A stretch of DNA of 39,324 bases from contig CAIUPP010000039.1 in NCBI GenBank assembly GCA_903901045.1, positions 1-39,324 of the forward strand. The letters run 5' to 3'. Shown here piece by piece: positions 1 to 35,966 of the stretch. Positions within the stretch are counted from its first letter, which is position 1. Each line of letters opens with the position of its first letter. Position numbers and translations under genes: made by a program. The notes under the pieces were generated by a model that saw only the letters and a list, made by a program, of their open reading frames with translations, was not told the origin of the DNA and searched no databases. The DNA is from an uncultured Planctomycetota bacterium. GTDB taxonomy: Bacteria; Planctomycetota; Brocadiia; CAIUPP01.

Positions 1-136
1 CATGGCCAACCTGAGCTACACCGGGCATTGGATCCAGAACGGCGGCACCCCCTCCACCGACGGGCGCCTCAACACCCCCACCGTCTGGCACCTCTTTGAC
101 ACCGCCAAAGGCCTCGATGCCGGCGCTCCGATGTGA
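1..136 (+). CDS. Type II-like pseudopilin, C-terminal end only (partial)
   Basis: An open frame enters from the left edge and ends at TGA 134-136. The 44 visible residues end in WHLFDTAKGLDAGAPM. This matches in style the tail of the complete pseudopilin at 23938-25137, which ends [15 protein letters not shown] and then a few more residues. The family has an N-terminal type IV pilin-like methylation helix and a C-terminal H-X9-DG region, and is exported through a type II/IV pilus-like system. Only the tail is visible, so the call rests on this resemblance and on the terminator that follows. The ATG at position 2 is probably internal, not a start. Confidence 0.55.
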   Translation, partial: MANLSYTGHWIQNGGTPSTDGRLNTPTVWHLFDTAKGLDAGAPM

Positions 137-314: not shown

Positions 315-2393
315 ATGAGACGAGCAGGATTTGCCGTTGTGCTCACCGCATTGGTCGCCATGATTGGGTTCGCCCAGCCGGCGAAGGTTTCTCCGCAGGG
401 GTTGCGGGTGGAGTCGATTGGCACGCCCGTGAAGAGCGCGCGCTACTGGACGACGGGACTCTCGCCCAACCCGCGCGGCGGGTACAATTTCATCACCCAG
501 ATATACAACGTCGACAAGAGCGGGAAGATGGATACGGACTGGGTGGTTCTGGACCTGGCTTCCGGCCAGCCGGCGAAGCGGTTCACCTTCCCCGGCTATG
601 CCAACTCGAACTTCCAGATAGAGAACCAGTTGCGCGCCGCCAATGGGCGCATATTCTTCGCCATTCAGGGCACGCGCTTTTGCTATTACGACCCGGAAAC
701 GGAAACGATCGGAATGATCGGACCGCTATTTCCCGCCACCCCCGGGGGGCCCGGCTTCTTCTATCAGAACCAGATCGGGCCGGATGGGCTGCTTTATTCG
801 ACGACCCAGTCCAGTGACGGGTTCACCTACCTGGCCGTCGTCAACCCCGATACGCTCACCTTCAAGACCTTTGAAAAGATAGGCGGCAAGGTGCGCAAGG
901 AGATGCTGACTTACGGGTACTGGATCGAAGTGGATCCGCCGTGGGTCTACGTCTGCGTGGGGCAGGAAACCTGGGCGCTGGTGGCCGTGAACACGGAAAC
1001 TTCCGAGAGCAAGGTGCTGGCGGAGGTCCCTGCTCCCTATCGGATATCGTTCAATTCGCGCGAGCATGTCCGCGTTTCCATTACCTCGGAGTACACCGGG
1101 ACCGACATGGGGGAGGGCACTTTCAAGGACAACGTGCTCTATGTTCCCTCGCAGAAGGTGAAGACGGAGTACTTCTGGCTTGCCGCCGACAAGATGATCC
1201 CGGCGATGCAGAACTACAATGCGGCGGAACTCCCCTTCACGCCGCGCAGCATGAAGAAGTTCCCGCCTCTTGAACTGACAAAGACCAAGGCGCTGCCGCT
1301 GGGCACTCCGCCGGAGCTGGACCTTTCCGGTCTGGGCCTGGTGGTCGATAACAGTTTCACAGTCAAGTGGCGTCCGGCCGGCTCGCCCACCGCGGCGGAA
1401 TGGCGCACGGCGTCGTTCCCGTTGAAGAACGTCATCGGGATCAAGATTCAGTCACTCATTGCCTTGAAGGACGGAACCCTGCTGGGCAATGCGGAACAGT
1501 ACAACGGCTTCTTCCGCTACAAGCCGGCGGATAACAAGCTGGCGTACTATGGCAAGGCCGGACCGAGCCAGCCCGTGATCGCCGAGGCTGACGGGAAGGT
1601 CTATTTCACCGGCTACCCCAACAGCGTGTTGTACGTTTACGATCCCGCGAAGCCGTGGACTTGTCCTTTCCCCGCCGATTTCGCGGCCATCTCGAAGGCC
1701 GAGTTGAACCCGCACGTGCTGGGACAGTTCGCGGTGAAGACCGGGACGCACTACGCCTACGGCCTCGTCGCGGAGGGCGGAAGGCTCTACATGTACGGGC
1801 GCCGCGAGCGTCAGGGTCAGGGCGGCGGAGTGGGATACTATGACATCGCTTCCGGCAAGTTCGAGGGCACCAATGCGAACCTGAACTTCCTGGTGCCGCG
1901 CGGCTTCGCCGTGATGCCGGCCCTCAAGAAGATTGTCTACTCCGGCGAACTCATCGATGACCCGACCCACCCGACCGAGAAACCGGCCGAGGCGCAGTTG
2001 GTCGTCTATGATATGGAGATGAAGGAGCTGAAGCGGATCACCGTGAAGCCGGGACTGGCCTCGACGGGCTGGCTCTACGTAGCGCCCTCCGGCAAGCAAA
2101 TCGTGGGCGTGTTGAATACACCGACCGACAAGGCCATTTACCTTTTCGACATGGAGACGGAAAAGCTGGTCAAATGGGTCACGCTGACGGACGCGATTGA
2201 CTGGGTGTCCACGAACCCGAAAGATGGCAAGTGGTTTGGAAGAGTGAAGTCAACGCTGGTCCAACTGGATCCCGCGACACTCGACGTGAAGCCGATCGGG
2301 GATCTCGGGCGCGCCCTGGCGTACCCGGTATGGCAGGCCGGCGTGCTCTATGGAACGGACGGCCCGGAATTGTTCAAGGTGACGTTGCCGTAA
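315..2393 (+). CDS. Secreted beta-propeller protein of unknown function
   Basis: The product is about 692 residues. It begins MRRAGFAVVLTALVAM, a signal peptide ending near GFAQP, so it is exported. ATG 315 is chosen over TTG 300 because GGGAGA at 302-307 is a good ribosome-binding site and the signal peptide then starts cleanly. The rest is built of repeated short beta-strand units such as NRRG-free patterns of the type YDPETET, LYVYDPAKPW, VVYDMEMKELK and YLFDMETEKL. This is the look of a YVTN/quinoprotein-type propeller with seven or more blades. No catalytic motif is recognised. Terminators at 183-220 and 2417-2455 flank it, so it is probably monocistronic. It may bind or sense a polymer outside the cell, or be a lyase-like propeller; the sequence does not decide. 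Confidence 0.7.
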   Translation: MRRAGFAVVLTALVAMIGFAQPAKVSPQGLRVESIGTPVKSARYWTTGLSPNPRGGYNFITQIYNVDKSGKMDTDWVVLDLASGQPAKRFTFPGYANSNFQIENQLRAANGRIFFAIQGTRFCYYDPETETIGMIGPLFPATPGGPGFFYQNQIGPDGLLYSTTQSSDGFTYLAVVNPDTLTFKTFEKIGGKVRKEMLTYGYWIEVDPPWVYVCVGQETWALVAVNTETSESKVLAEVPAPYRISFNSREHVRVSITSEYTGTDMGEGTFKDNVLYVPSQKVKTEYFWLAADKMIPAMQNYNAAELPFTPRSMKKFPPLELTKTKALPLGTPPELDLSGLGLVVDNSFTVKWRPAGSPTAAEWRTASFPLKNVIGIKIQSLIALKDGTLLGNAEQYNGFFRYKPADNKLAYYGKAGPSQPVIAEADGKVYFTGYPNSVLYVYDPAKPWTCPFPADFAAISKAELNPHVLGQFAVKTGTHYAYGLVAEGGRLYMYGRRERQGQGGGVGYYDIASGKFEGTNANLNFLVPRGFAVMPALKKIVYSGELIDDPTHPTEKPAEAQLVVYDMEMKELKRITVKPGLASTGWLYVAPSGKQIVGVLNTPTDKAIYLFDMETEKLVKWVTLTDAIDWVSTNPKDGKWFGRVKSTLVQLDPATLDVKPIGDLGRALAYPVWQAGVLYGTDGPELFKVTLP

Positions 2394-18219: not shown

Positions 18220-21200
18220 CTATCGCCGCCGGACTTCCATCAGCGAGATGCCCCAGGGCTTTCCGGCCTCGGCCGGTTCGAAGGATATCGTCAAGCCGCT
18301 GTCTCCAACCGTGGTCTCGAAGTCCACCTTGCTGACGCCCTTTTCCGGCGGTTGCGGAAGCAGGTAGCTCTTGCCATCGGTGAGCGTCACCCGCGCGGCG
18401 GCGGGCGTGACCCAGCCGACCTGCGGAAGTTCGGTATCCAGCGAGGAGGAGAAGAGGGAGATGGCATAACGGCCGGGGTCCAGTGCGACTTTGAATCGGG
18501 CCTTGCCGTCGATCACGATCATGCGGCCCCTGGCATCCGGCGGACCGCTATGCCAGGAAAAAGGCTTCGCCGCGCTGTTGAAGAAGTCCTTGGGCTCCTG
18601 TTCCCACCCGAACGTGATCGTGGGCACCGGCGGGGCAACGTTCGCGGGCGGCGCATCGGGCGTTACCGCGAGGTATCTCAGCGTGAAGCCTGGATGCCGA
18701 ATCGCATGATGCCGCCACAGCCCTTTTCCGGGCACGGGCTGCAGGGTGATGTCCAGTCCGTTGGCCTCTGCGCGGCCCCAAAGCGAGATACGCTCGAATG
18801 GCGTTCCCCCCGCACCGATGCACTCCTTCGAAAGCGTCCACGGCGTGGCGACTGGTCGGTCGTTGATGAGCGCCTCGAAGAGCCCGCTGGCGCCGTTCAT
18901 GGCCTCGATATCCACGCGGTAAGAGCCGGCGGGAACGGCAACGTGATAGGTGGCGGAGCCGGGGAAGTCAACCGTGCCCGCGCCTTTCACGGCGAGTTTG
19001 GTGCCTGGCATCCAGCCGGAGCCGCCCTCGCGCATAGCCGCGAGATCGCAGACTATCGGCTGTCCGACTGCCACGGCATCGTCTACTTCGGCGCTGGCGG
19101 CCAGCAAGGACAGCCGATGCCCTTTGCCGGTATCCACGAGTTCCATGCTGTCCAGTTGCTCAAAGCGTAAGGGGACCTCCAGGAGATTCAGAAGCGTCGT
19201 CGTGCCATCCCAGTACGGCGAAACTTTGAAGGCGCGCGCGAGGCTGGCCTTGGTGGCTAACCCCCAGTAATTCCAGCGCTCGTATTGTTCCAGATTGCGC
19301 AGATCCACGGTCTCGGCCTGTCCGTCGGCATACCGAAGGGTCAATTGTGCGCCGATGTCGTGATTGAACTGCGCCGCGTCGGCCGTGCAAAGCAGGAAGA
19401 ATCGCCGCGCCTTAAGGCGCACGGGCACACGCACCAGTTCTTTGTCGTGGAGTACGACCGCCGCTTTCCCGGTGTTGGCGCTCGGATGGATGAGGTCGAA
19501 GGGAACGCCCGAGAGTTCGATGCGTCCGCCCCAAGGCAGCCCGTAGACGTAGCTTTCCTCTTCGCGGACGGAGAAATCATTCCGGAAGACCACGGGATAA
19601 ACGCTCATCTCGCGCACGGGGTAACAACCGGGTTCCACCTCATCCCACACGAGGAAGTCCAGGCGGAGCGTATCCCCGCCTACAGGGGGGGCGCCGGCAG
19701 CAGGCTTGCCGTCCACGCGAAGTTCGTTCCACGGGTTCGCGTTGGCTGCCGAGCGCAGGTCCAGTGTCCGCACGCGCGCCCGGTCGATCCCTTTCAGCGG
19801 CACGCCGGACCAGCCCCAGTCCCAGCCGACCCCGCCTTTACGCAAGCGGGGAGCCGAGTCTAGCAGGTCCTTCTCTGTCAGGCCTGCTTCCACCGCATCG
19901 GCCAGCATATAAGGAAAAACCGAAAGCGCGCTGAAATCCGTGGCGTTGGGATTATTCACCGAACTTCTTGCCAGCGGGATCAACTCCTCGAACGTCATCT
20001 CGCGCAAGGGCTTCTTGAGAAGTTTGTCCGGCCAGAATTCCTCCAGAGCGGGGACGCAGTAGGGGTCCCACATCGAGTGGATCAACTTGAGGGCGTCGAG
20101 GAAGGCGGGGTCCTTCTCCAGTTGCCAGGCGAAGGCATATTGAGCGCCGCCGAAGCTCAGGCCAGGCCTCTCCAGGCGCTTGCGCGCGACCTGGAGCCAG
20201 CGCGCCGACATTTCAGCGTCACGGGTGAGCAGCAGGTAGCCCATCAACGACGGGAGCTGAATGGTCGGCGAACGAAAATGCGGACGGTCCAATTGGCCAT
20301 AGTCGCCGGTATTGAAACCGTAGTAGTTTCCGTGGGCGTTTTCCTTGGCCTTTGTCTGCCAGCTCTTGTCGCCGGTCACCGCGGCCATACGAGCCAGGTA
20401 CTCGCCGACATACTCATCCTCCGGTCCGCCGCCATGCAGGTGGAAGTTGGCGTATTCCTTCGCCACGTCCAGGCAGCGCAGGTCACCCAGGAGCAGGTAC
20501 ATATCCATTGCGCCAAAGGTGGCCGTGCCGTAGCCGACAAGGAAGTTGCCCCAATGCTGTTCATCATGCCGGTGACCGCCGCCGATGGCTCCGGGATCTT
20601 CGTCAAAATGGACCGTATCGATATCGGTCACGTGGCGCACGAGGTTCTCCCAGAAGTCGAGGAGGCGCCGGTCGCCGCTGCGGAGGAACTGCACGAGGGT
20701 GACGCGATCGGTGGCCCCATCGTTGTTGAGCCAGCCCATATAGCCTCGTGATACCCAACTTTTGGGTCCCGAATCCCCTGCCTGTGTGGGCATCTCGTAC
20801 CCGGTGAAAAGGATGTCGCCGAAGTCCACGAAGCCGTACCAACCGAACTGCGACTGGTTGCGCAGGCGCCATTCCATGGCCAGGTCGGTGTAAGTCTCCA
20901 GCCGGGGGAAACGCGCGACGTCTCGCCGGTGGAACCGGGGCAGGATGCCGGCCCCGGAATACCACTCCGGCGACGCGAGGGCGACCAACCGCTGGTTGAA
21001 GGATGCGACGGTGTTTTCAATTTCGGTGGGAGTGAGGCCGGCATCATGGAACCAAAGGAGGACTTCATGGGTCTTCGCAATGCCCCGCCCACCTTTCGGG
21101 TAGTTGCCCAGGTCGTAATGCACCTTGTCTTCCACCTCGTCGTAGCGCCTGCGGAGGTCCAACACCTGGTCGCCCTGATCGGGCCACAGGTATTCCGTGA

Positions 21201-22377
21201 TCGTCCCTGCCGCCGCGTCCACGGCGATTTCCTTGGGAAAAAGCTTATCGAAATGGCGGATGGCCACGGTCGCGGCCGCGCGTTGTCCGCGCAACGTGGC
21301 CCACCCCTTCGCCCACTTGCCCGCCCCGGCGGCCGTCAGCTCCTTCTCGGAACGGCCCGCACTGATCTCATAAACCACCGGCTGCACGTCGGGATAGGCG
21401 ACCTTGTGGCGAAGGACGGAGGGACCTTTTTCCAGCATCGCGGCAAACTGCGTCCCGGCCGGCATTTCGGTCGGCGTTGCGCCGCCGAACAGGACTGACC
21501 GCGCGCCGGTCAGGTCAAACTGCTGTCGTAGTGCCAACCGGCGCAGGAAGTCCTCTTTCACATTTGCGGAGAAGACGACTGTGTGCGTAACCCAGATCCA
21601 TGGTTTCCCGGCATGGAAGGTCAACCGTACCGTGTAAGGGTACTCCTCCCGTCCGGCCGCATTCGCCTGCCAACCGTCCAGTCGAATGACCGTCCGCTGC
21701 GCGCCGCTCCATTCAACCGCAGCGACGAAGGGTTTCTTCGACCCTGAGGGAACAAAGCGCTCGGCCGAGGTCCCGGCCTGCGCGCCGCTCTTGCGCAGCC
21801 AGTTCTCTTCCTGTGGAGGGCCCGGCGGGGTACGTTCCACGTCGAGAAACATCTGTCCGGCAGAGCGCAGCACCTGCGCTCCTCCCGAGAGCGTCACGGC
21901 TTCGGGCAGGCTGAAGGAACGCTTGTTGACCCGCGCCGTCAGCGCGCCCGTGTTGACCGTAAACGCCTCCGGCGACTCCGTGACTGCAATTCCTCCCACT
22001 TGGGCCCGCGCCTTGACCTCTGGTCCGTACAACAGTCGGTAGTTCAGGGTCTGATTCGCATCAAGGGACGTCTGGAAGTCGAGCATCACCCACATGGCCG
22101 ACCCATCGTCCCACCGTGCCGTGATACGCACATCCGCCGGAACGTCTTTGCCCTCTCCGTCTACGAGGCGGACCGAACCGGCGTCCATGAGCGCTTGTCG
22201 GGGCAGAGGCACGCCAGTGGTCACCACGTCATTCCGACGCGCGATCCCGGTAGGCTCAGTGACCGTCAAGGGAACTTCAGCGGCCATCACTGCTGCGGCG
22301 GCAAGAATAAGCGCGCCCACCGTGATGCAGGCCAAGCCGCACGACTTTGGCTGAATCCTCTTCCGGGACTGCAGCAT
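18220..22377 (-). CDS. Exported PL26 / PcRGLX-YetA-like protein (exo-rhamnogalacturonan lyase relative)
   Basis: The product is about 1,385 residues. ATG 22375-22377 is preceded by GGAGG at 22386-22390 with 8-nt spacing and begins MLQSRKRIQPKSCGLACITV, a signal peptide with a long hydrophobic core ending near VMAAEV. The N-terminal domain (VPLTVTEPTGIARRNDVVTT, VPADVRITARWDDGSAMWVM) has the RIFT-barrel pattern of PcRGLX/YetA-like proteins. A large middle part follows with GHRHDEQHWGNFLVGYGTAT, as in exo-rhamnogalacturonan lyases. The last 400 residues are beta-rich, with GSYRVDIEAMNG-type carbohydrate-binding modules. PL26 enzymes cut rhamnogalacturonan exolytically. It is divergent from the GntR-SBP gene; the 91 bp between them hold the promoter and twin sites. 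It is larger than characterised members and its substrate is inferred. Confidence 0.78.
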   Translation of the reverse strand: MLQSRKRIQPKSCGLACITVGALILAAAAVMAAEVPLTVTEPTGIARRNDVVTTGVPLPRQALMDAGSVRLVDGEGKDVPADVRITARWDDGSAMWVMLDFQTSLDANQTLNYRLLYGPEVKARAQVGGIAVTESPEAFTVNTGALTARVNKRSFSLPEAVTLSGGAQVLRSAGQMFLDVERTPPGPPQEENWLRKSGAQAGTSAERFVPSGSKKPFVAAVEWSGAQRTVIRLDGWQANAAGREEYPYTVRLTFHAGKPWIWVTHTVVFSANVKEDFLRRLALRQQFDLTGARSVLFGGATPTEMPAGTQFAAMLEKGPSVLRHKVAYPDVQPVVYEISAGRSEKELTAAGAGKWAKGWATLRGQRAAATVAIRHFDKLFPKEIAVDAAAGTITEYLWPDQGDQVLDLRRRYDEVEDKVHYDLGNYPKGGRGIAKTHEVLLWFHDAGLTPTEIENTVASFNQRLVALASPEWYSGAGILPRFHRRDVARFPRLETYTDLAMEWRLRNQSQFGWYGFVDFGDILFTGYEMPTQAGDSGPKSWVSRGYMGWLNNDGATDRVTLVQFLRSGDRRLLDFWENLVRHVTDIDTVHFDEDPGAIGGGHRHDEQHWGNFLVGYGTATFGAMDMYLLLGDLRCLDVAKEYANFHLHGGGPEDEYVGEYLARMAAVTGDKSWQTKAKENAHGNYYGFNTGDYGQLDRPHFRSPTIQLPSLMGYLLLTRDAEMSARWLQVARKRLERPGLSFGGAQYAFAWQLEKDPAFLDALKLIHSMWDPYCVPALEEFWPDKLLKKPLREMTFEELIPLARSSVNNPNATDFSALSVFPYMLADAVEAGLTEKDLLDSAPRLRKGGVGWDWGWSGVPLKGIDRARVRTLDLRSAANANPWNELRVDGKPAAGAPPVGGDTLRLDFLVWDEVEPGCYPVREMSVYPVVFRNDFSVREEESYVYGLPWGGRIELSGVPFDLIHPSANTGKAAVVLHDKELVRVPVRLKARRFFLLCTADAAQFNHDIGAQLTLRYADGQAETVDLRNLEQYERWNYWGLATKASLARAFKVSPYWDGTTTLLNLLEVPLRFEQLDSMELVDTGKGHRLSLLAASAEVDDAVAVGQPIVCDLAAMREGGSGWMPGTKLAVKGAGTVDFPGSATYHVAVPAGSYRVDIEAMNGASGLFEALINDRPVATPWTLSKECIGAGGTPFERISLWGRAEANGLDITLQPVPGKGLWRHHAIRHPGFTLRYLAVTPDAPPANVAPPVPTITFGWEQEPKDFFNSAAKPFSWHSGPPDARGRMIVIDGKARFKVALDPGRYAISLFSSSLDTELPQVGWVTPAAARVTLTDGKSYLLPQPPEKGVSKVDFETTVGDSGLTISFEPAEAGKPWGISLMEVRRR

Positions 22378-22468: not shown

Positions 22469-23851
22469 GTGGCACATATTCCAGACACATTTGCCGTTCT
22501 GGATCGTGGTTCGCATGTGCCGACCTACATCCAAGTCAAGCGAAGCATTGCCAATGCTATCCAGAACGGGACGTTCCACCGCGACGCGAAGCTCCCTTCT
22601 GCTGCGGACCTGGCCCGTGAGTTCTCAGTCACATCCACAACTCTTAACCGCGCCATCCAGGAATTGAAGCGCGAAGGGTGGGTGACCACCAAGCGCGGCA
22701 GCGGCATATACGCGGCATCAGGCCCGTCTGAAACTATGGTCCGTGATGGCGGGGATCCGCGCGAACTCCGCGTCCCGGAACTTGGCCCGATTTGCCACGA
22801 ATCCAGGGTGGCGTTTCTGAACCGGCTTCAACGCGAGATGCCGGGTGTTTCGATTCGGGAAGGCGCCCCGGACGCCATTGTGCGGCGGATGTACAGTCCG
22901 GTGCTTCCCTGCTTTGCATCGGGTCTCGAAGACCTGACAGACATCTTGCTGCCGCGCTGGGACCGCCGCATTGACGACCCGGCCATCGCGCCGTTCTGCC
23001 ATGAGGGGCGTCTGCTCGCCTCCGGCCCTGGGATTGACGCCCTCACCGTATTCCTGAATGAAGACCTTTTCGATCAGTGCGGCGTGCCATTGCCGGGCTC
23101 GGACTGGACGCTGGCGGACATGCTCGACCTGGCCGCTCGCCTGCACCGCCCGGAGCGCGGGCAGCACGGGCTGGCGCTTGCGCCAAACTACTTCACGTTC
23201 GCGTATTTTGTTTGGCAGAATGGCGGCAACCACTTCAGCGACGATGGGTCTCGCTGCACCCTCGATTCTGCGGAAGGCTACGGGGCGATCCAGTGCCTGG
23301 CGCGCCTGACGCAATCCCTTCCTTCGCAGCGGTCGGACCTTGCATTGTTCACGCAGGGACGCGCGGCCATGTTGATGTCCTATGGGAGCCGTTACGCGCA
23401 TGCGCGCGCAAACGCGAGCTTTCGCTTGTCGCTCCGATGTGTGCCGGAGTACCAGAAGGGGATTGCACCCGTTGAAGCCAACGGCCTGGCCCTTGTCAAG
23501 GGCAAGGCCGCGCGCGAGTCAGGGCTTCAGTTCCTGACGCTGTGCCCCGACTACTACTACAACTGGTGGCACGGTTGCGAGCGGGTCCCGCTCTCCATGG
23601 ATCGCGCGCGCGATGATGTCTCCCCGGCGACGCAGCCCTTGCGCGATGCCCTGCCCTTCGGCCGCCACATGCTTCACAATGTCCCGCCGAAGTTACGGAC
23701 GCCTCAACATGACGTGGCCGGGCATCTGCTAGGCGACCAAGTCCGGCACATCGTCGAAGAGCCTTCGGAGCGAATCGAGGAGCGGCTGCGGATTCTCGCC
23801 AGCCACATGACGTCCATTCTTTCACAGAGACTTCGCCTGCCGGACCTATAG
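22469..23851 (+). CDS. GntR-type regulator fused to a periplasmic-binding-protein (SBP family 1-like) sensor domain
   Basis: The product is 460 residues. Residues of about 15-82 are a GntR winged helix: [49 protein letters not shown]. Residues of about 100-400 carry the signature of family 1 extracellular solute-binding proteins: [20 protein letters not shown] (about 190-210) is the usual 'kdlFkkaGl...TWdE' element, and [17 protein letters not shown] and a late FTQGRAAML fit the second lobe. No signal peptide or membrane segment is present, so it acts in the cytoplasm as a one-component sensor of an imported sugar. The start is GTG 22469 with AAGGA at 22454-22458. LacI-type regulators use a related but different (type I) fold; here the fold is the ABC-importer type. 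It probably controls the divergent lyase gene and the genes downstream. Confidence 0.85.
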
Positions 23852-23937
23852 CCGGCTGGAAAGGAGGAACCGAGCGTCGCAGGGACGTAACGTGGGCTGA
23901 GTCAATCGAAGTCACACCTATCGAAAGGAGGCCAACC

Positions 23938-25137
23938 GTGAGAGCTTTGCGGACGTTTCTGTCGGCATTCACGTTGATCGAGCTTCTGGTCGTGATAGCG
24001 ATCATCGCTATTCTGGCCGGAATGCTGCTGCCGGCTTTGGCGGCAGCGAGGGAGAAGGCGCGGCGCACCTCCTGCCTGAACAATCTCAACCAGATTGCCA
24101 AAGCCACGGAGAGCTACTGCAGCGACTACGCCGGCTACTACCCCGCGGTTCCAGGCGCCAGTTCCAGTCCTGCCGGCACGTTCCCCTTCGTCGACTCGAG
24201 GGGGCGCGGGACGGTGGACTGCTGGGGATATTCATTAAAGAACAATCAGAATTTCGCCGTTGCGGGGATCGCACTGAAGGACGGCACTGGAACACTCCGC
24301 ACTGCGGGTGTTGCCATGCCCGACGGCCAGTTCTACATGATGCCGGAGTATCTCGGGTTGCTCTTGAGCACGAACTCACTTCCGGACGGCAACTGCCTGT
24401 TCTGTCCATCGTTCGGCCAAACCTTCACCGAGAACTTCATCAAGCCCGGTGGCACGTTCCAAACGTTCATGTGGATCGACCCGTTGATGTGGAAGAAGCT
24501 GGGCGGCCCCAGCGCTGCTGACATGCAGTACAAGAGTCCCGACCGGATCTTCGGCGTCGGCACGTGGTGCAATAATGGGGTCAGCGGCCTGGCGTACCAG
24601 TCGACGTACGCCTACCGCAATACGCTCGTCGAAGACGGCCAATGGGGAGGGACTGCCCCGAATCCGCGCGAGTGGCCGTTCTACATCCCCAACGTCAAGC
24701 CTCGCCTCCACGTCAAAGCCCTGGAGCCGGTATTCAGGTCTCAAAAACTCCTGGGGTCGCGTGCCATGGTATCTGATGGTTGGATGCGCACGGGACCAAC
24801 CGCATTCAAGAACAAGCCGGGGCTCGGGTATCAGCTTCACCGCGACGGCTACAATGTCCTCTACGGCGATTGGAGCGCCAAATGGTATGGTGATCCGCAG
24901 CAGCGGATCATGTGGAGTTGGCTCGACCTCGGCACCCCAGACGCCCCGACGGACTCTGGCGGGGCCGTGACCGGACATGTGACGTGCCTGGGCAACTCCT
25001 TCATGGAAAATAAGGTGTATGACACGAACCTGAAGAACGGGTGCCGTGATTTTGAGATCTGGAACACATTTGACGTCGCCTCCGGCATCGACGTGGGCGG
25101 GACGGATGCCTGGAACAACCCCGTGGCGTACCCGTAA
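23938..25137 (+). CDS. Type II-like pseudopilin (prepilin-type methylation domain, C-terminal H-X9-D motif)
   Basis: The product is 399 residues. The N-terminus is [20 protein letters not shown], a short basic leader and the [20 protein letters not shown] prepilin helix, with the conserved Glu at position 5 of the mature protein. It continues [19 protein letters not shown], typical of DUF1559-like pseudopilins in Lentisphaerota and Planctomycetota. Near residue 300 is [16 protein letters not shown], matching the H-X9-DG family motif with W in place of the G. GTG 23938 is preceded by AAAGGAGG (23924-23931). It lies 86 bp after the regulator gene and before the hydrolase genes. No secretion or pilus machinery genes are nearby. 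A role in surface display or handling of polysaccharide is inference from position. Confidence 0.88.
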
Positions 25138-25332: not shown

Positions 25333-27369
25333 ATGTTGGATACCGCAGAAGGTCATTCATCCACCGACCCCCTCATCTTGTACCGAATATGGCCGGAACA
25401 CTGGCTGACGGACGCGGCGCTTGAGAAGTTATTGTCCTTCTTTGCCGGCGCAAAGCGGTCGGTTGACGAGCTGATCTTCTTTAACGAATGCTATCACGCC
25501 CCCATGCGCCTGGATCGGGAGCGCGCGCGGATGGAGCGGCTGCGCCGGGCCATGGCCCTGGCGCGGCAGCAGTTGGGCGTGCGGGCCGGGATCAATATTC
25601 TGGCTACGATCGGACATCGCGAGGAGGGGGCGTCGGGGAGCCTGCCCGAGAACTGGGCGCGCATCGTGGGAGCGGATGGCGCCATCTGCCAGTCCGCCGC
25701 GTGTCCCGCCGACCTATATTTCCTCGACTACGTGGCCGCCTTATACAGCGCCGCAGCGGCAGCGAGGCCGGATGTAATCTGGCTGGACGATGACTTCCGC
25801 CTGCAATACCATGAACCGGTCACGCTGGCCTGTTATTGTAGCGGTTGCCTGAAAGAATTCGGCCGCCGTGTGGGCGGGTCGTATGCGCGGCAGGAACTCC
25901 TCAATGCCTGGAATGACGCCTCCCCCGACGCCCCCCGGTTGCGTCGGGCGTGGCTGCAATTCAACCGTGACCGACTGCGCCGGGTGATGCAGACGGCGGA
26001 GCGCGCCGTCCATGCCGTCGATCCTCATCTCCCCATCGGGCTGATGACCGGAGAATTCGTGTACGACGGTTACGGTTATCGAGAACATGCGCGGACATTG
26101 ACCGGCCCTACGGGCGCTCGCGTGCTCTGGCGGCCAGGGGCCGGGTTTTGGAATGACAACGGTCCGAGAGAAGTCATCAGCAAGGCGCACTCCATTGGCA
26201 GGCAGGTGGCAGGGCTGCCCGAATGGGTGACGGCGGTGCAGGGGGAGATCGAGAACATCCCGTATCAGAAGCTGCTCAAGAGCGTGCACATGACGATGGT
26301 GGAGTGCGCCGTCGATCTGGCGGTCGGTTGCACCGGTATCCAGCATAACGTTCTTCCGTACCGTGAGCAGCCTGAGGAGGAACACCGCCCGTTCCTGGAA
26401 CAGACGGCGCGGAATCGTTCATTCTTCGAGCGCATCCGCCGTGCCGCAGGGCGCGCTGCGGTGGCTGGCATTTATCCTGCATGGACCGACGACCTTTTTC
26501 TGGCGCAGGGGCATGCGAAGGACTGGTTCGCGCCGCAGGGCGGGATCGTGTCGCTGCGTGCGCAACAGGTGCTTGGCGAGATCGGTTTGCCGATCGCGTA
26601 CAGCCCCGCGGCGCGGTGCGCAACGACCCTGGCCGGGCCGTTGCCGGCGCTGTTCAGCAGCGGAGCACTGACGGAATTCCTGCGCGGCGGGGTATTCATG
26701 GACGCAGAGGCATGCCGCCAGCTGCACGAGCGCGGCCTGGGGCATTTGACCGGTGTGACGCGGTTGGAGCCGGTGGAGCGGGACGTCCTGGAGCGCTTGT
26801 CCGAGCACCCGCTGAATGGCAACGGGCAGGGCCTGACACGGGATGCGCGTCCCGCATTCTTCTCGCATGAGCCGGAGCGGTCGTACCGGCTGGAACCCAT
26901 GCCGGGCGCCAGCGTCCTCGCGCAGATCGAGAACTACGAGGGGGAAGATCGCGGGAGTTGCCTGACCCTGTTCGAGAATGCCTTGGGCGGCCGTGTGGCA
27001 GTATGCGGATACAGCCCCTGGGCATTCATCCACAGCCTGATCAAGGTCCGGCAACTGCGCGCAGTGTTCTTGTGGCTCGCGCGAGGCGATTTGCCGGCCA
27101 TGGTCGAGAGCTACGGGCGCGTCCATGTCTGGGCGCGCGCGCGCGGCGACGGGAAGCGCTGCTTCTTCCTGCTGAACGCCAGCCAGGACGCCGTGCCGGG
27201 GGTGACCCTGCGTCTGGCCTCTTCAGGACGCTTCGACCTCATGACGCCCAATGGAGAAGAAGCGAAGGCGGCATCAGCGTCGGCAGCCGGCGCGGGGCAT
27301 TGCCTGGACGTCGGCGGACTCGGCCCATGGGCTTGTTGCTTCATATCGGAGGAGGGATCGTGCGACTGA
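25333..27369 (+). CDS. GH-A clan-like (GH42-type architecture) protein, substrate unknown
   Basis: The product is 678 residues with no signal peptide, so it is probably cytoplasmic. The first 380 residues look like a TIM barrel: DELIFFNECYHAP, PDVIWLDDDFRLQYHEP and a Cys-rich ACYCSGCLKEFGRR, a pattern seen in uncharacterised glycoside hydrolase-like proteins of these phyla. A middle segment (FSSGALTEFLRGGVFMDAEA) resembles the amidotransferase-like trimerisation domain of GH42 beta-galactosidases. The end (VHVWARARGDGKRCFFLLNA) resembles a small beta-sandwich. Candidate acids are the Asp run in LDDDF and Glu in VQGEIENIP, but I cannot assign them. ATG 25333 has AAGGA at 25324-25328. The stop overlaps the start of the next gene by 10 bp, so the two are translationally coupled. 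Confidence 0.6.
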   Translation: MLDTAEGHSSTDPLILYRIWPEHWLTDAALEKLLSFFAGAKRSVDELIFFNECYHAPMRLDRERARMERLRRAMALARQQLGVRAGINILATIGHREEGASGSLPENWARIVGADGAICQSAACPADLYFLDYVAALYSAAAAARPDVIWLDDDFRLQYHEPVTLACYCSGCLKEFGRRVGGSYARQELLNAWNDASPDAPRLRRAWLQFNRDRLRRVMQTAERAVHAVDPHLPIGLMTGEFVYDGYGYREHARTLTGPTGARVLWRPGAGFWNDNGPREVISKAHSIGRQVAGLPEWVTAVQGEIENIPYQKLLKSVHMTMVECAVDLAVGCTGIQHNVLPYREQPEEEHRPFLEQTARNRSFFERIRRAAGRAAVAGIYPAWTDDLFLAQGHAKDWFAPQGGIVSLRAQQVLGEIGLPIAYSPAARCATTLAGPLPALFSSGALTEFLRGGVFMDAEACRQLHERGLGHLTGVTRLEPVERDVLERLSEHPLNGNGQGLTRDARPAFFSHEPERSYRLEPMPGASVLAQIENYEGEDRGSCLTLFENALGGRVAVCGYSPWAFIHSLIKVRQLRAVFLWLARGDLPAMVESYGRVHVWARARGDGKRCFFLLNASQDAVPGVTLRLASSGRFDLMTPNGEEAKAASASAAGAGHCLDVGGLGPWACCFISEEGSCD

Positions 27370-30300
27370 GCAACTGCGCGCAATACGCCGGACTTGCCGT
27401 GACGTCCATCGTCCTGTTGGCCGCAGGATGCGGCTTTTCCCCGCGAATGAGTTACCCTTGCGTTCGCGCCGAGTTGCCCCCTGTGTTGGACGGGGACTTA
27501 TCCGACTCGTGCTGGGCCGGCGCGGAGGCGGCCGCTGTGGACGAGCCGGTCAACGGCCTGCTCCAAACCAAGCCGCGCACCGTATTCCGCCTACTGTGGG
27601 ATGACGCTTACCTGTACTTCTCCGCCACGGTGCAGGATGCGACCCCAGTCTGCGTCGGCGCCGCACGGGACGATCGCGTGTGGGAGGGCGACTGCTTCGA
27701 ACTCCTCCTCAACCCCGGCGACCGACGGGGCGAGTACTACGAGACGGACTTCAACTCTAACGGCGTCATCTGGGATTCTCTCTGGGTGCGACACCGCAAC
27801 GGCGACTCGCGCATCCTGCGCAGTTGGACGGCGCCCAGCTTGGAATGCCGGACGAAGCCACGGCCCGGCGGTTGGACGCTTGAAGGACGCATACGGCTCG
27901 ACGAATTTGTCGGGGCGGCCCATCTTCCGCCCGTGCACGGCGACCGCTGGCGCTTCAATGCCCACTACCTCGACGCGCGGCCGGGCACAGGGACCCAGGC
28001 GGTCTTCTCCTGGGCGCCAACGACTGATTCTATCGACACCGGCCAGTTTGGCGAGATCCTCTTCCTCGACCCTGCCGGGGTCGAGGCCTATGAACGTCAA
28101 GAAGCGCTCGCGGCAGGACTGTTGCGCGACGGGACGCTTGCGAGGGCAGATCCCCTGGCTGACCGGGTCGAGACGCTGACGGTCCGCTCGCAGATGGGGA
28201 CTGTCTTTCATCGCGTCGCTCAGCCCGACGGCTGGTCCCTGGCGCCTGGGTTCGGCCGATTCGTTCCCCACGCCGCGACCAAGAAGGAACCGCCCGGCCT
28301 GTTCGCCGCGCGGCCGGCCGCCGAGATGGACCCGATGCTCGTGGATTTCACGGCGTGGGAAGAGGGGACGCTCCTGCTCATTGGCAAGCTCGATGCCCCG
28401 GCCGCCCGAGCCGTGACGAAGGGCCTGGCAGACGGTGTCAGGGTCCGGGCGACCGCGGCGGGGACGCCTGCCAGGAGCCTATGCCTCGATAAAGACAACT
28501 GGCTGGCCGAGTCCCTCCCAGTGCACAAGGGACAGGCGGTGCGCTTGCAGGTCGATGCCGGGCAGGCAGGCAATATCGCATGGGATTTTGCCCTTCTCGG
28601 CGTTTACCTTGTCAAGGGAGATGCCCAGGAGTCGAGCGACCTGCCGGCGGAATGGGAGCGCATCGGCGATGCAGACCACGTGCGCGTGGAGCCTTCCTCC
28701 CGAGTGACCGGAGGGAGTTCAATCCGAATCGAGGCGGCGGACAACCTGAGCGGATTTTGCCGCTGGGTGCCGCGCACGCAGGGCGAGACGCTCTACCGCA
28801 TCACCGGATGGGTCCGTTCTGATCTGACGGGCGTTACTCGGGCGCACATCGGCGTGGATTACTGTTCGGCACAAAAGAAGTTCCTCCGGCAGGCCTGCAC
28901 ATGGGCGCCGCTGGAGGGGCACCTCCGCTGGGGCCTGTACAACCTCTCCGGGCGAACAGATTGGCATCGCTTTGTCGCATACGCCTTTGACGTACCGGCC
29001 GAAACGTCGTGGTTGAAGCTCTGGTGCGGGGTCAATGCCTGGGAGACCCCCGGCGCGGGCGGCAGCGCGTGCTTCGAGGATGTGCGCATCGAGCCGATCA
29101 CCCCCGACCCGACCTGGCCGCTGGGTTTTCCTCCGGCACGTTGGCAACCTGAGCGCGCGCCAGCTTGCGCGGACGAAGTCCGGGATTCCGGCTATTGTGT
29201 CTCTTCGGCCTCTTACCTGGAATACATCCTGCCCGAAAGCGTGCCTGCCCACGCAGCGGACTCGCGCCAGTTGGCGACCTTTTCTTTGCCGGGCTGGAAA
29301 GAGCCGCTGTCTTTTACGGTCTACGCCCTCAGAGACCTGACGGCCGTTCGCATCCATGTTTCCGACCTGGCGATGGCCGGCGCGGCGGGCGGCCGCATTT
29401 CCGCCAGCCAGGTCGAGGTCCGGCGCGTGCGCTCGATTTATAAGCGCCGGGACTTGATGAGCAACGAGTATCTGCTTTCTCCAAACCACATTGAAACGTT
29501 CGAATCACTCGACATCCCGGCCAATCGAGTTCAGCAGTTCTGGCTGACCGTTCAGGTCCCCCCGAACGCGCCACCGGGACAGTATACAGGGCAAGTTGTG
29601 GTGGAGCCTGTTAACGCCCCAGTGAAAACGCTTCAACTGACATTGGATGTCCTGCCGGTGCGGCTCGAGACGCCGCGCGGAGTTGCCGTCGGCCTGTATA
29701 GCTACCACCTGAAGAGTGACACAAAGGCCCGGTTGCTCGCGGCGCTCCTGGACATGAAGGAACACGGGATGACGACGACCTTCATGTTCAACCCGAATCT
29801 GAACATTCCCGTCGCGAACAACCCGACCGGCAAGCCGCAGCTCCTCTGGAATGAGGCCAACCAGTTGGGGGAGTTGTTGGAGACATACAAAGAAGCCCGG
29901 TTCACAGTACCGTTGTACCTGATCGCGCCGGCGGCTTTGTTCAAGGCCGCCGAGTCGTGCGGCGGCCCCTGCGGCACGGCGGGGTTCGCGGCCGTGTATC
30001 GGGACCTGTGGTCCCAAGTACTTGCGGAGAAGACGCGACGGAATTGGCCGGACTTCATCGTAGCGCCCTACGATGAAGGTTATCCATATCCCTTCACCGA
30101 CGAGCGTTTCACCATTACCCGCTCCTGCGGCAATGTCCTCAAGGAACTGGGCATACCGGTCGCACTCCACTCGTTGAATCACCCCATCCCAAGCGCGATC
30201 CGGTTCGAAAAGGAGTTCTACGCTCTCGCTGACTGTATTCTCTTGACGTTCTGTCATCCGCCCGTTTGCGTGACGGAGTCCTATCGAGGGTTCGGGAACT

Positions 30301-30911
30301 GGGACGTCTACCGCACACACGTCCGTGACGACGGGAAGAAACTGCTCCTCTACAACATCGACACCACGGGCGTTCATCCGGAAGCGATGCGCTTCGGTTA
30401 TGGAGTGGCCCTCTGGAGCCGTAAGGCCGACGGCCTCATGGATTGGCACTACCAGGAGTCACAACGCGACGGCGGATACGGGATTTCCTCGCAGGCGGGG
30501 TCCGCGGTGATGAACTTCACCTACCCGCCGATCGGCGACTTTCGGGGCGGACCGTCCATCGGATGGGAGGCTGTGCGGGAGGGGACGAAGGACTACACGC
30601 TGCTCTACACGCTGCGCACGCTGACGGAGCGCGCCGAACGTTCACCCGATGCGGCGTTGCGCAAAGAGGCGGCCGCGGCCTGGCGAGAGGTCGAGGCTCT
30701 TCTCGACCGATTGACGTTCTCAACTATCGACACCACGGGCGAGCTATCGCTCCCGAACCGGTGGACGAGCGAGCGGTGGACCGAGGAGGGCGTCAAGCTC
30801 CTGGGCGGGGAGTTCAAGGTCCCCAACGGTTGGTTCCTGGCCGACTACGACCGATTGCGGCGAATGCTTTGTGACCGTATCCTGCTGCTGCAGGATCGCA
30901 TGGGAGACTGA
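27360..30911 (+). CDS. Lipoprotein with CBM9-like module and GH123-like / DUF4091 domain
   Basis: The product is about 1,183 residues. GTG 27360 is chosen because GGAGGAGGG lies just upstream and the protein then begins MRLSNCAQYAGLAVTSIVLL with lipobox AAGC (Cys 24). It is therefore a lipid-anchored envelope protein. Residues of about 35-225 form a CBM9-like domain (PPVLDGDLSDSCWAGAEA, LWDDAYLYFSATVQDA). The middle holds beta-sandwich modules, among them a CBM4/9-like jelly roll. The C-terminal half is TIM-barrel-like with adjacent Asp-Glu in APYDEGYPYP (about 904-905), as in the GH123 catalytic pair, and ends with the DUF4091 signature SIGWEAVREGTKDYTLLY. GH123 members cleave beta-N-acetylgalactosaminides; this protein may act on another linkage. 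It is coupled to the preceding gene by the 10-bp overlap. Confidence 0.75.
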   Translation: MRLSNCAQYAGLAVTSIVLLAAGCGFSPRMSYPCVRAELPPVLDGDLSDSCWAGAEAAAVDEPVNGLLQTKPRTVFRLLWDDAYLYFSATVQDATPVCVGAARDDRVWEGDCFELLLNPGDRRGEYYETDFNSNGVIWDSLWVRHRNGDSRILRSWTAPSLECRTKPRPGGWTLEGRIRLDEFVGAAHLPPVHGDRWRFNAHYLDARPGTGTQAVFSWAPTTDSIDTGQFGEILFLDPAGVEAYERQEALAAGLLRDGTLARADPLADRVETLTVRSQMGTVFHRVAQPDGWSLAPGFGRFVPHAATKKEPPGLFAARPAAEMDPMLVDFTAWEEGTLLLIGKLDAPAARAVTKGLADGVRVRATAAGTPARSLCLDKDNWLAESLPVHKGQAVRLQVDAGQAGNIAWDFALLGVYLVKGDAQESSDLPAEWERIGDADHVRVEPSSRVTGGSSIRIEAADNLSGFCRWVPRTQGETLYRITGWVRSDLTGVTRAHIGVDYCSAQKKFLRQACTWAPLEGHLRWGLYNLSGRTDWHRFVAYAFDVPAETSWLKLWCGVNAWETPGAGGSACFEDVRIEPITPDPTWPLGFPPARWQPERAPACADEVRDSGYCVSSASYLEYILPESVPAHAADSRQLATFSLPGWKEPLSFTVYALRDLTAVRIHVSDLAMAGAAGGRISASQVEVRRVRSIYKRRDLMSNEYLLSPNHIETFESLDIPANRVQQFWLTVQVPPNAPPGQYTGQVVVEPVNAPVKTLQLTLDVLPVRLETPRGVAVGLYSYHLKSDTKARLLAALLDMKEHGMTTTFMFNPNLNIPVANNPTGKPQLLWNEANQLGELLETYKEARFTVPLYLIAPAALFKAAESCGGPCGTAGFAAVYRDLWSQVLAEKTRRNWPDFIVAPYDEGYPYPFTDERFTITRSCGNVLKELGIPVALHSLNHPIPSAIRFEKEFYALADCILLTFCHPPVCVTESYRGFGNWDVYRTHVRDDGKKLLLYNIDTTGVHPEAMRFGYGVALWSRKADGLMDWHYQESQRDGGYGISSQAGSAVMNFTYPPIGDFRGGPSIGWEAVREGTKDYTLLYTLRTLTERAERSPDAALRKEAAAAWREVEALLDRLTFSTIDTTGELSLPNRWTSERWTEEGVKLLGGEFKVPNGWFLADYDRLRRMLCDRILLLQDRMGD

Positions 30912-35800: not shown

Positions 35801-35966
<166 letters not shown>

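Follow-up and report, generated by a model that had tools for sequence, protein, structure and literature searches.

The window analyzed here (the entire contig C39 of genome G000, 39,324 nucleotides) carries a gene whose product, judged by its sequence, belongs to a set of about 55 paralogous subunits in a single genome, which resemble type IV pilins and are unusually long. Most of the corresponding loci appear to couple a sugar-sensing regulator of the GntR or LacI type with one pilin and with secreted, often carbohydrate-related proteins. This layout suggests one dedicated pilus subunit per glycan-degrading locus. We estimate the probability at slightly below one half that these pilins are sugar-induced and locus-specific, are assembled by a shared machine, and handle the glycan of their own locus.

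The Window Pilin and Its Paralogues

The genome is a 4.77 Mb bin of 154 contigs with a completeness of 94.1% and a contamination of 3.06%. The window pilin gene (Table 1) starts with a GTG codon behind a strong Shine–Dalgarno sequence (GAAAGGAGG, 23923–23931). Its product has a class III prepilin N-terminus and matches N_methyl and SBP_bac_10/DUF1559 in Pfam, both above the curated cut-off, as well as TIGR02532 in NCBIfam, also above cut-off. The DUF1559 match (33.9 bits, gathering threshold 23.3) is confined to residues 36–80 and aligns with only the first 45 of 268 model positions. The H-X9-D motif occupies residues 301–311 within a hairpin that spans residues 301–317. In this protein the motif reads H-X9-DW. 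TIGR04294, which we take to be the H-X9-DG prepilin family, was matched neither by the window pilin at E 0.01 nor by 53 family members at E 1e-3. An AlphaFold2 model based on 36 sequences (pLDDT 50.5) is reliable only at the N-terminal helix, which comprises residues 13–63, and at the H-X9-D hairpin; we count its poor quality against the glycan-handling reading. A profile search of the PDB with the pilin returned matches at the pilin end only.

A search of the genome for related sequences gave 124 matches, and genes were called on the stretches around them by a custom gene caller script. We delimited the family as 55 long members, namely those whose score against the family profile exceeds 350 bits, together with two genes cut by contig ends; the 350-bit cut-off is our own choice. 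Four lower-scoring long relatives (g0572, g0583, g0600 and g0601) were counted among 14 other prepilin-like genes. TIGR02532 and PF07963 matched in 53 of 53 members examined, and the only Pfam matches in these proteins were PF07963 and PF07596 (SBP_bac_10/DUF1559, at E 1e-3). Pfam recognized no lectin or carbohydrate-binding domain in the 53 pilins, a result that weighs against glycan handling. The recognizable extra functional domain by which modular pilins are defined was found in none of them, and what they contain is a long variable extra region. The median mature length of the family is 430 residues.

In the alignment of 53 members the N-terminal helix and one 21-residue segment are highly conserved, and the stretches between them vary strongly. 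Glu15, C46, C156, H301, N306, G310 and D319 are invariant, and D311 is conserved in at least 90% of the sequences. The bare H-X9-D pattern is weak evidence of kinship, because it also turns up in 58 of 175 unrelated genes; its extended version is conserved in 53 of the 55 paralogues. Tandem pairs or triples of pilins that share one upstream regulator were observed at L045:7512-10415, at L060:8934-11774 and on several contigs of a second genome, G001.

Gene Neighborhood in the Window

The earlier note on this DNA had described a complete pseudopilin with an H-X9-D motif, placed between a sensor-regulator and enzyme genes, and the tail of a like protein at the left edge. The open reading frame, the Pfam and NCBIfam matches and the position of the motif agree with this description of the gene. 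A GntR regulator on its 5' side and enzymes on its 3' side agree with the proposed placement (Table 1). The edge fragment is indeed a relative, since it aligns with the C-terminal end of the family profile. When it was compared with the fetched genes, the hits shown, apart from itself, belonged to family members or to a piece of one. The tail is incomplete because the window is the whole contig and the contig end cuts the gene.

Table 1. Features of the window, with positions counted from its first nucleotide.
Feature	Position	Strand	Remarks
C-terminal tail of a second family pilin	2..136	+	44-aa open frame; aligns with the C-terminal end of the family profile
Gene adjoining the tail, 692 aa, hydrophobic start	315..2393	+	No Pfam match
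Large protein with PcRGLX domains, which resemble rhamnogalacturonan lyase; oriented divergently to the regulator	18220..22377	-	
GntR-type regulator, C-terminal part like ABC-type solute-binding proteins	22469..23851	+	Pfam; 86 bp upstream of the pilin
Family pilin	23938..25137	+	399 aa; N-terminus of prepilin type that includes the conserved helix, then a variable middle and the H-X9-D hairpin
First gene downstream of the pilin, 678 aa	25333..27369	+	No Pfam match
Protein of 1183 aa (as called) with domains like CBM9 and the GH123 N-terminus	27360..30911	+	Pfam
Sortilin/BNR-type propeller protein, 1014 aa	30978..34022	+	Pfam
GH32/GH43-like enzyme, 487 aa	34175..35638	+	GH32 N-terminal above cut-off; GH43 just below

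The claim that a carbohydrate region also lies beside the tail turned out to be loose. The adjoining gene has no Pfam match, and it is followed by an oxidoreductase, a weak URO-D match, an abhydrolase and an aminotransferase. Elsewhere on the contig, the minus-strand segment 11608-17149 contains a sugar isomerase-like gene, an FGGY kinase (xylulokinase-like) and neighbors that together resemble a pentose or deoxysugar pathway. A tRNA gene at 35890-35963 on the plus strand is the sole Rfam match in the window.

Upstream Regulators

The upstream sugar-sensing regulator, to which the earlier note gave no particular weight, is the most regular part of the layout. We located GntR (PF00392) and LacI (PF00356) domains genome-wide and calculated expected values by taking sites as random over the genome. 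Such a domain lies within 2.5 kb upstream of 35 of the 55 family pilins, where 1.65 are expected, and within the same span downstream of only two. Viewed from the regulators, 35 of the 58 above-cut-off domains in the genome are found in the 2.5 kb preceding a family pilin; 25 of them share its orientation and 10 are divergent. None of the 14 other prepilin-like genes on the same stretches has a GntR/LacI domain upstream (Fisher p 9e-6). Moving the four lower-scoring long relatives into the family changes the comparison to 35/59 against 0/10.

The immediate upstream gene is on the same strand as the pilin in 41 of 53 cases. Among 51 such genes analyzed with Pfam, 29 encode a LacI-type sugar-binding domain (Peripla_BP_3); GntR domains were recognized in 21, LacI in 10, FCD in four, ROK in two and solute-binding domains in two. 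The window regulator combines a GntR DNA-binding part with an ABC solute-binding-like part, and a domain of the latter kind occurs in 2 of the 51 genes, most of the others having one of the LacI type. There are also 20 pilins among the 55 that lack an upstream GntR/LacI domain, and this count speaks against our main reading; some of the 20 are truncated at a contig end or located behind ROK-type regulators. A search for a shared operator or leader upstream of the pilins yielded k-mers that are mostly Shine–Dalgarno-like words.

Downstream Genes

The next downstream gene shares the strand of the pilin in 49 of 52 cases. According to Pfam, the 47 first downstream genes include LamG (11), CBM9 (6), GH123_N (4), DUF4838 (4), beta-helix (4) and PcRGLX (3) proteins; one 59-aa fragment of a pilin C-terminus (g0146) and one GntR gene are also part of this set. 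The 45 second downstream genes include LamG (8), GH123_N (4), CBM9 (2) and GH42 (2). Two control sets of 60 genes each were drawn from stretches away from pilins and from distant genes of pilin stretches. None of these families was among the top 25 listed for the controls, which leaves room for single LamG or CBM9 proteins, and the Fisher test on downstream families took the control count as 1 in 120. The whole genome has 39 LamG domains, and 24 of these are on the same strand as a family pilin and no more than 5 kb downstream of it, where about one is expected, with the proviso that domains within one protein are not independent. By a simple rule, a start resembling a signal peptide was assigned to 25 of the 47 first downstream genes; among distant genes the count was 45 of 175, and among the control genes 29 of 184.

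Pilins that are close in the tree more often share homologous downstream genes (47 loci, permutation p 0.0012), a test that does not separate co-evolution from joint duplication of pilin and enzyme genes. The corresponding nearest-paralog test gave 11 of 47 (p 0.012). Regulator similarity does not track pilin distance (p 0.20, n = 41). The co-variation of pilin and downstream gene fits a tie of the pilin to a substrate or an enzyme. A genome-wide count of these pilins beside CAZyme clusters, as the earlier note had proposed, is strongly positive in this genome; enrichment was found and not its absence. The repeated pairing with sugar clusters, which that note had drawn from two cases in the window, is likewise borne out here by the enrichment of regulators and of LamG, CBM9, GH123 and PcRGLX proteins.

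Assembly Machinery and SusC/SusD

As previously claimed, no secretion machinery is found near the pilin: contig C39 contains no match to a secretin, a T2SSE ATPase or a prepilin peptidase. The genome does encode all three elsewhere, with 4 secretin matches, 16 T2SSE-domain matches and 2 prepilin peptidases, and on three contigs a secretin and an ATPase lie within a few kilobases of each other. Only 1 of the 55 family pilins is within 10 kb of any such machinery gene. These orphan pilins, far from the machinery genes, could thus be served only in trans. The missing machinery nearby is not a gap, since many pilins can be served by a single machine located elsewhere. The suggested absence of SusC/SusD also holds. 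SusD (PF07980) and the TonB-dependent receptor (PF00593) gave no match in either G000 or G001, and the Bacteroides control was positive.

Occurrence in Other Genomes

A single-protein search at E 1e-25 matched 2 of 29 genomes, namely G000 and G001, the latter from another genus of the same family. Gene calling on 28 stretches of G001 gave 40 family members, some of them fragments; tandem copies share a regulator. A GntR/LacI domain is present within 2.6 kb upstream of 22 of these 40 members, where 0.9 are expected, and downstream of none. Among 18 first downstream genes, PcRGLX, LamG, GH123-N, beta-helix and CBM4_9 occur in one protein each, alongside housekeeping-like genes. The enzyme link in this genome is weak. 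A strict rule that places every pilin with a CAZyme is disfavored, because few of the 18 downstream genes are CAZyme-like.

A phylum-wide profile search at E 1e-50, in which at most seven candidates were scored per genome, gave a match in 1 of 244 genomes (G000); the sample may not have included G001, and relatives in other genomes may have escaped the search. A scan of named genome contigs returned three weak loci, two labeled Candidatus Brocadiia and one Planctomycetota, and their proteins hold pilin-like segments of a different kind. These labels make Planctomycetota the likely phylum of G000. Long proteins with a weak internal match to the pilin profile were observed on Planctomycetota contigs at L091:2100-6528 and L093:8297-10513. 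A search of plasmids for relatives gave no match. DUF1559-like prepilin genes also occurred on IMG/VR contigs (L147-L226), in 184 of 334 candidate stretches, of which the best 80 were kept. Some of these contigs are near-identical across samples. The genes may stem from misfiled bacterial DNA or be phage-borne pilins.

Proposed Function and Alternatives

How might such a locus work? Breakdown products of a glycan would bind the regulator, so that pilin and enzymes are made together. One of the prepilin peptidases encoded in the genome would cut the pilin, which could then join a filament via its invariant N-terminal helix. Assembly would rely on a shared machinery of the T4P or T2SS type, the parts of which are encoded elsewhere in the genome. 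The variable C-terminal region may contact the glycan of the locus, and the polymer would be held or pulled toward the periplasm and cleaved.

A more far-reaching version of this idea is a kind of glycan utilization locus with its own variable type IV pilin in place of SusC/SusD (a "pilin-PUL"). Pilins selected by their regulators would load a shared pilus machine, switch its glycan specificity by transcription and pull whole polysaccharides to the enzymes. We regard this version as tentative and rather doubtful. The earlier interpretation, a new type of utilization system, stands with respect to the pairing with sugar loci and to the lack of SusD and TonB-dependent receptors, and falls short on the enzyme side in G001. 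From the gene content, the step to such a new type seems plausible.

An alternative role for the pilin is that of an export adaptor, meaning a pseudopilus subunit that is specific to its locus, works within a shared type II secretion system and, instead of catching glycan, helps to push out or anchor the secreted proteins of that locus. The excess of signal-peptide-like starts in the first downstream genes over distant and control genes (25/47, 45/175 and 29/184), the correlation of pilin similarity with downstream homology, and the three contigs on which secretin and ATPase genes are close together all point this way. Known T2SS pseudopilins, however, are few per system and much shorter than the median of 430 residues observed here, and the GspG model gave 35.4 bits with the window pilin against a cut-off of 88.85. 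We judge export to be unlikely. The pilins may also adhere to or sense a glycan-bearing particle and have no direct part in degradation or uptake. That one pilin is present per degradative locus and is tied to the type of downstream gene exceeds the needs of general adhesion and makes such a role distinctly unlikely, even if sugar-sensing regulators stand upstream and modular type IV pilins with adhesive domains are widespread according to the available text of PMC8179133.

Tandem copies and tree branches specific to G000 could mean that duplication of whole loci has spread regulator, pilin and enzyme, with a pilin role unconnected to the neighbors; joint duplication could by itself yield the correlation between pilins and downstream genes. 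We surmise that this scenario is improbable. Regulators from several families occupy the same position in front of the pilins, which argues against one copied block, and their similarity does not track that of the pilins. The layout also recurs in G001 with diverged pilins. The idea that bin, gene caller or family delimitation created the pattern can draw on the 154 contigs, the 3.06% contamination and the cut-off of our own choosing. We find it hardly credible, as the pairing is seen within contigs, recurs in a second genome and persists (35/59 against 0/10) when the four lower-scoring long relatives are added to the family.

If the replacement of SusC/SusD by a pilin is real, it would provide a function for at least part of the DUF1559 expansion in Planctomycetota. 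It may further account for the handling of large glycans by bacteria that have no TonB-dependent SusC/SusD systems. The layout of regulator, pilin and enzyme names candidate pilins, predicts the glycan of each one from its neighbors, and turns the hypothesis of polysaccharide-catching pili into a testable one.

Comparison with Known Systems

The following comparisons draw on the available portions of the papers cited. Across 1425 Planctomycetota genomes many CAZyme clusters were reported, none of which the authors knew to be functionally characterized (PMC11131199). In a literature mainly outside subscription journals, we found no paper that ties pilins of this kind to sugar regulators and CAZyme loci, and none on one dedicated pilin per locus.

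DUF1559 prepilin-like proteins form the largest paralog group of Planctopirus limnophila, with 68 members of unknown function, two of them essential (PMC10632474). Tuwongella encodes 100 N_methyl proteins, 91 with SBP_bac_10, and their genes are distributed evenly along the genome, often with signal-peptide genes as neighbors (PMC8567305). We count this even spread against a locus-specific glycan reading. The pilins described here resemble the N_methyl and SBP_bac_10 (DUF1559) family of Planctomycetes in their prepilin N-terminus, their DUF1559 match, their many paralogs and their unknown function (PMC8567305, PMC10632474, PMC4807772). As far as the accessible text of these reports allows a comparison, they differ by a longer, nearly invariant 21-residue segment, by a partial DUF1559 match (in the window protein) and by a fixed place behind sugar regulators.

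Pili that grasp polysaccharides have precedents in Planctomycetes. Gold-labeled dextran binds to pili-like fibers of P. limnophila and G. obscuriglobus (PMC5394234), and a 2025 review hypothesizes dedicated pilin-like "fishing rods" for polysaccharides (PMC12078418). In contrast to our candidates, which are tied to single loci, no pilin gene is named in the available text of these two sources. PilB and PilC of Streptococcus sanguinis similarly join a pilin module to a large additional region to be displayed on a filament (PMC8179133). Unlike these proteins, as described in the portion of that paper at hand, the pilins of G000 have no recognizable extra domain and occur as dozens of paralogs, one per sugar locus.

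The window pilin is similar to the major T2SS pseudopilin GspG over about 60 residues of the N-terminal helix, but it is far longer, scores below the GspG cut-off and is encoded apart from secretion genes. The loci as a whole are organized like the SusC/SusD loci of Bacteroidota, which also unite a regulator, a surface component and enzymes. Unlike those loci, the loci of G000 lack SusD and a TonB-dependent receptor and have GntR or LacI regulators and a pilin, which would stand where SusC/SusD does in Bacteroidota.
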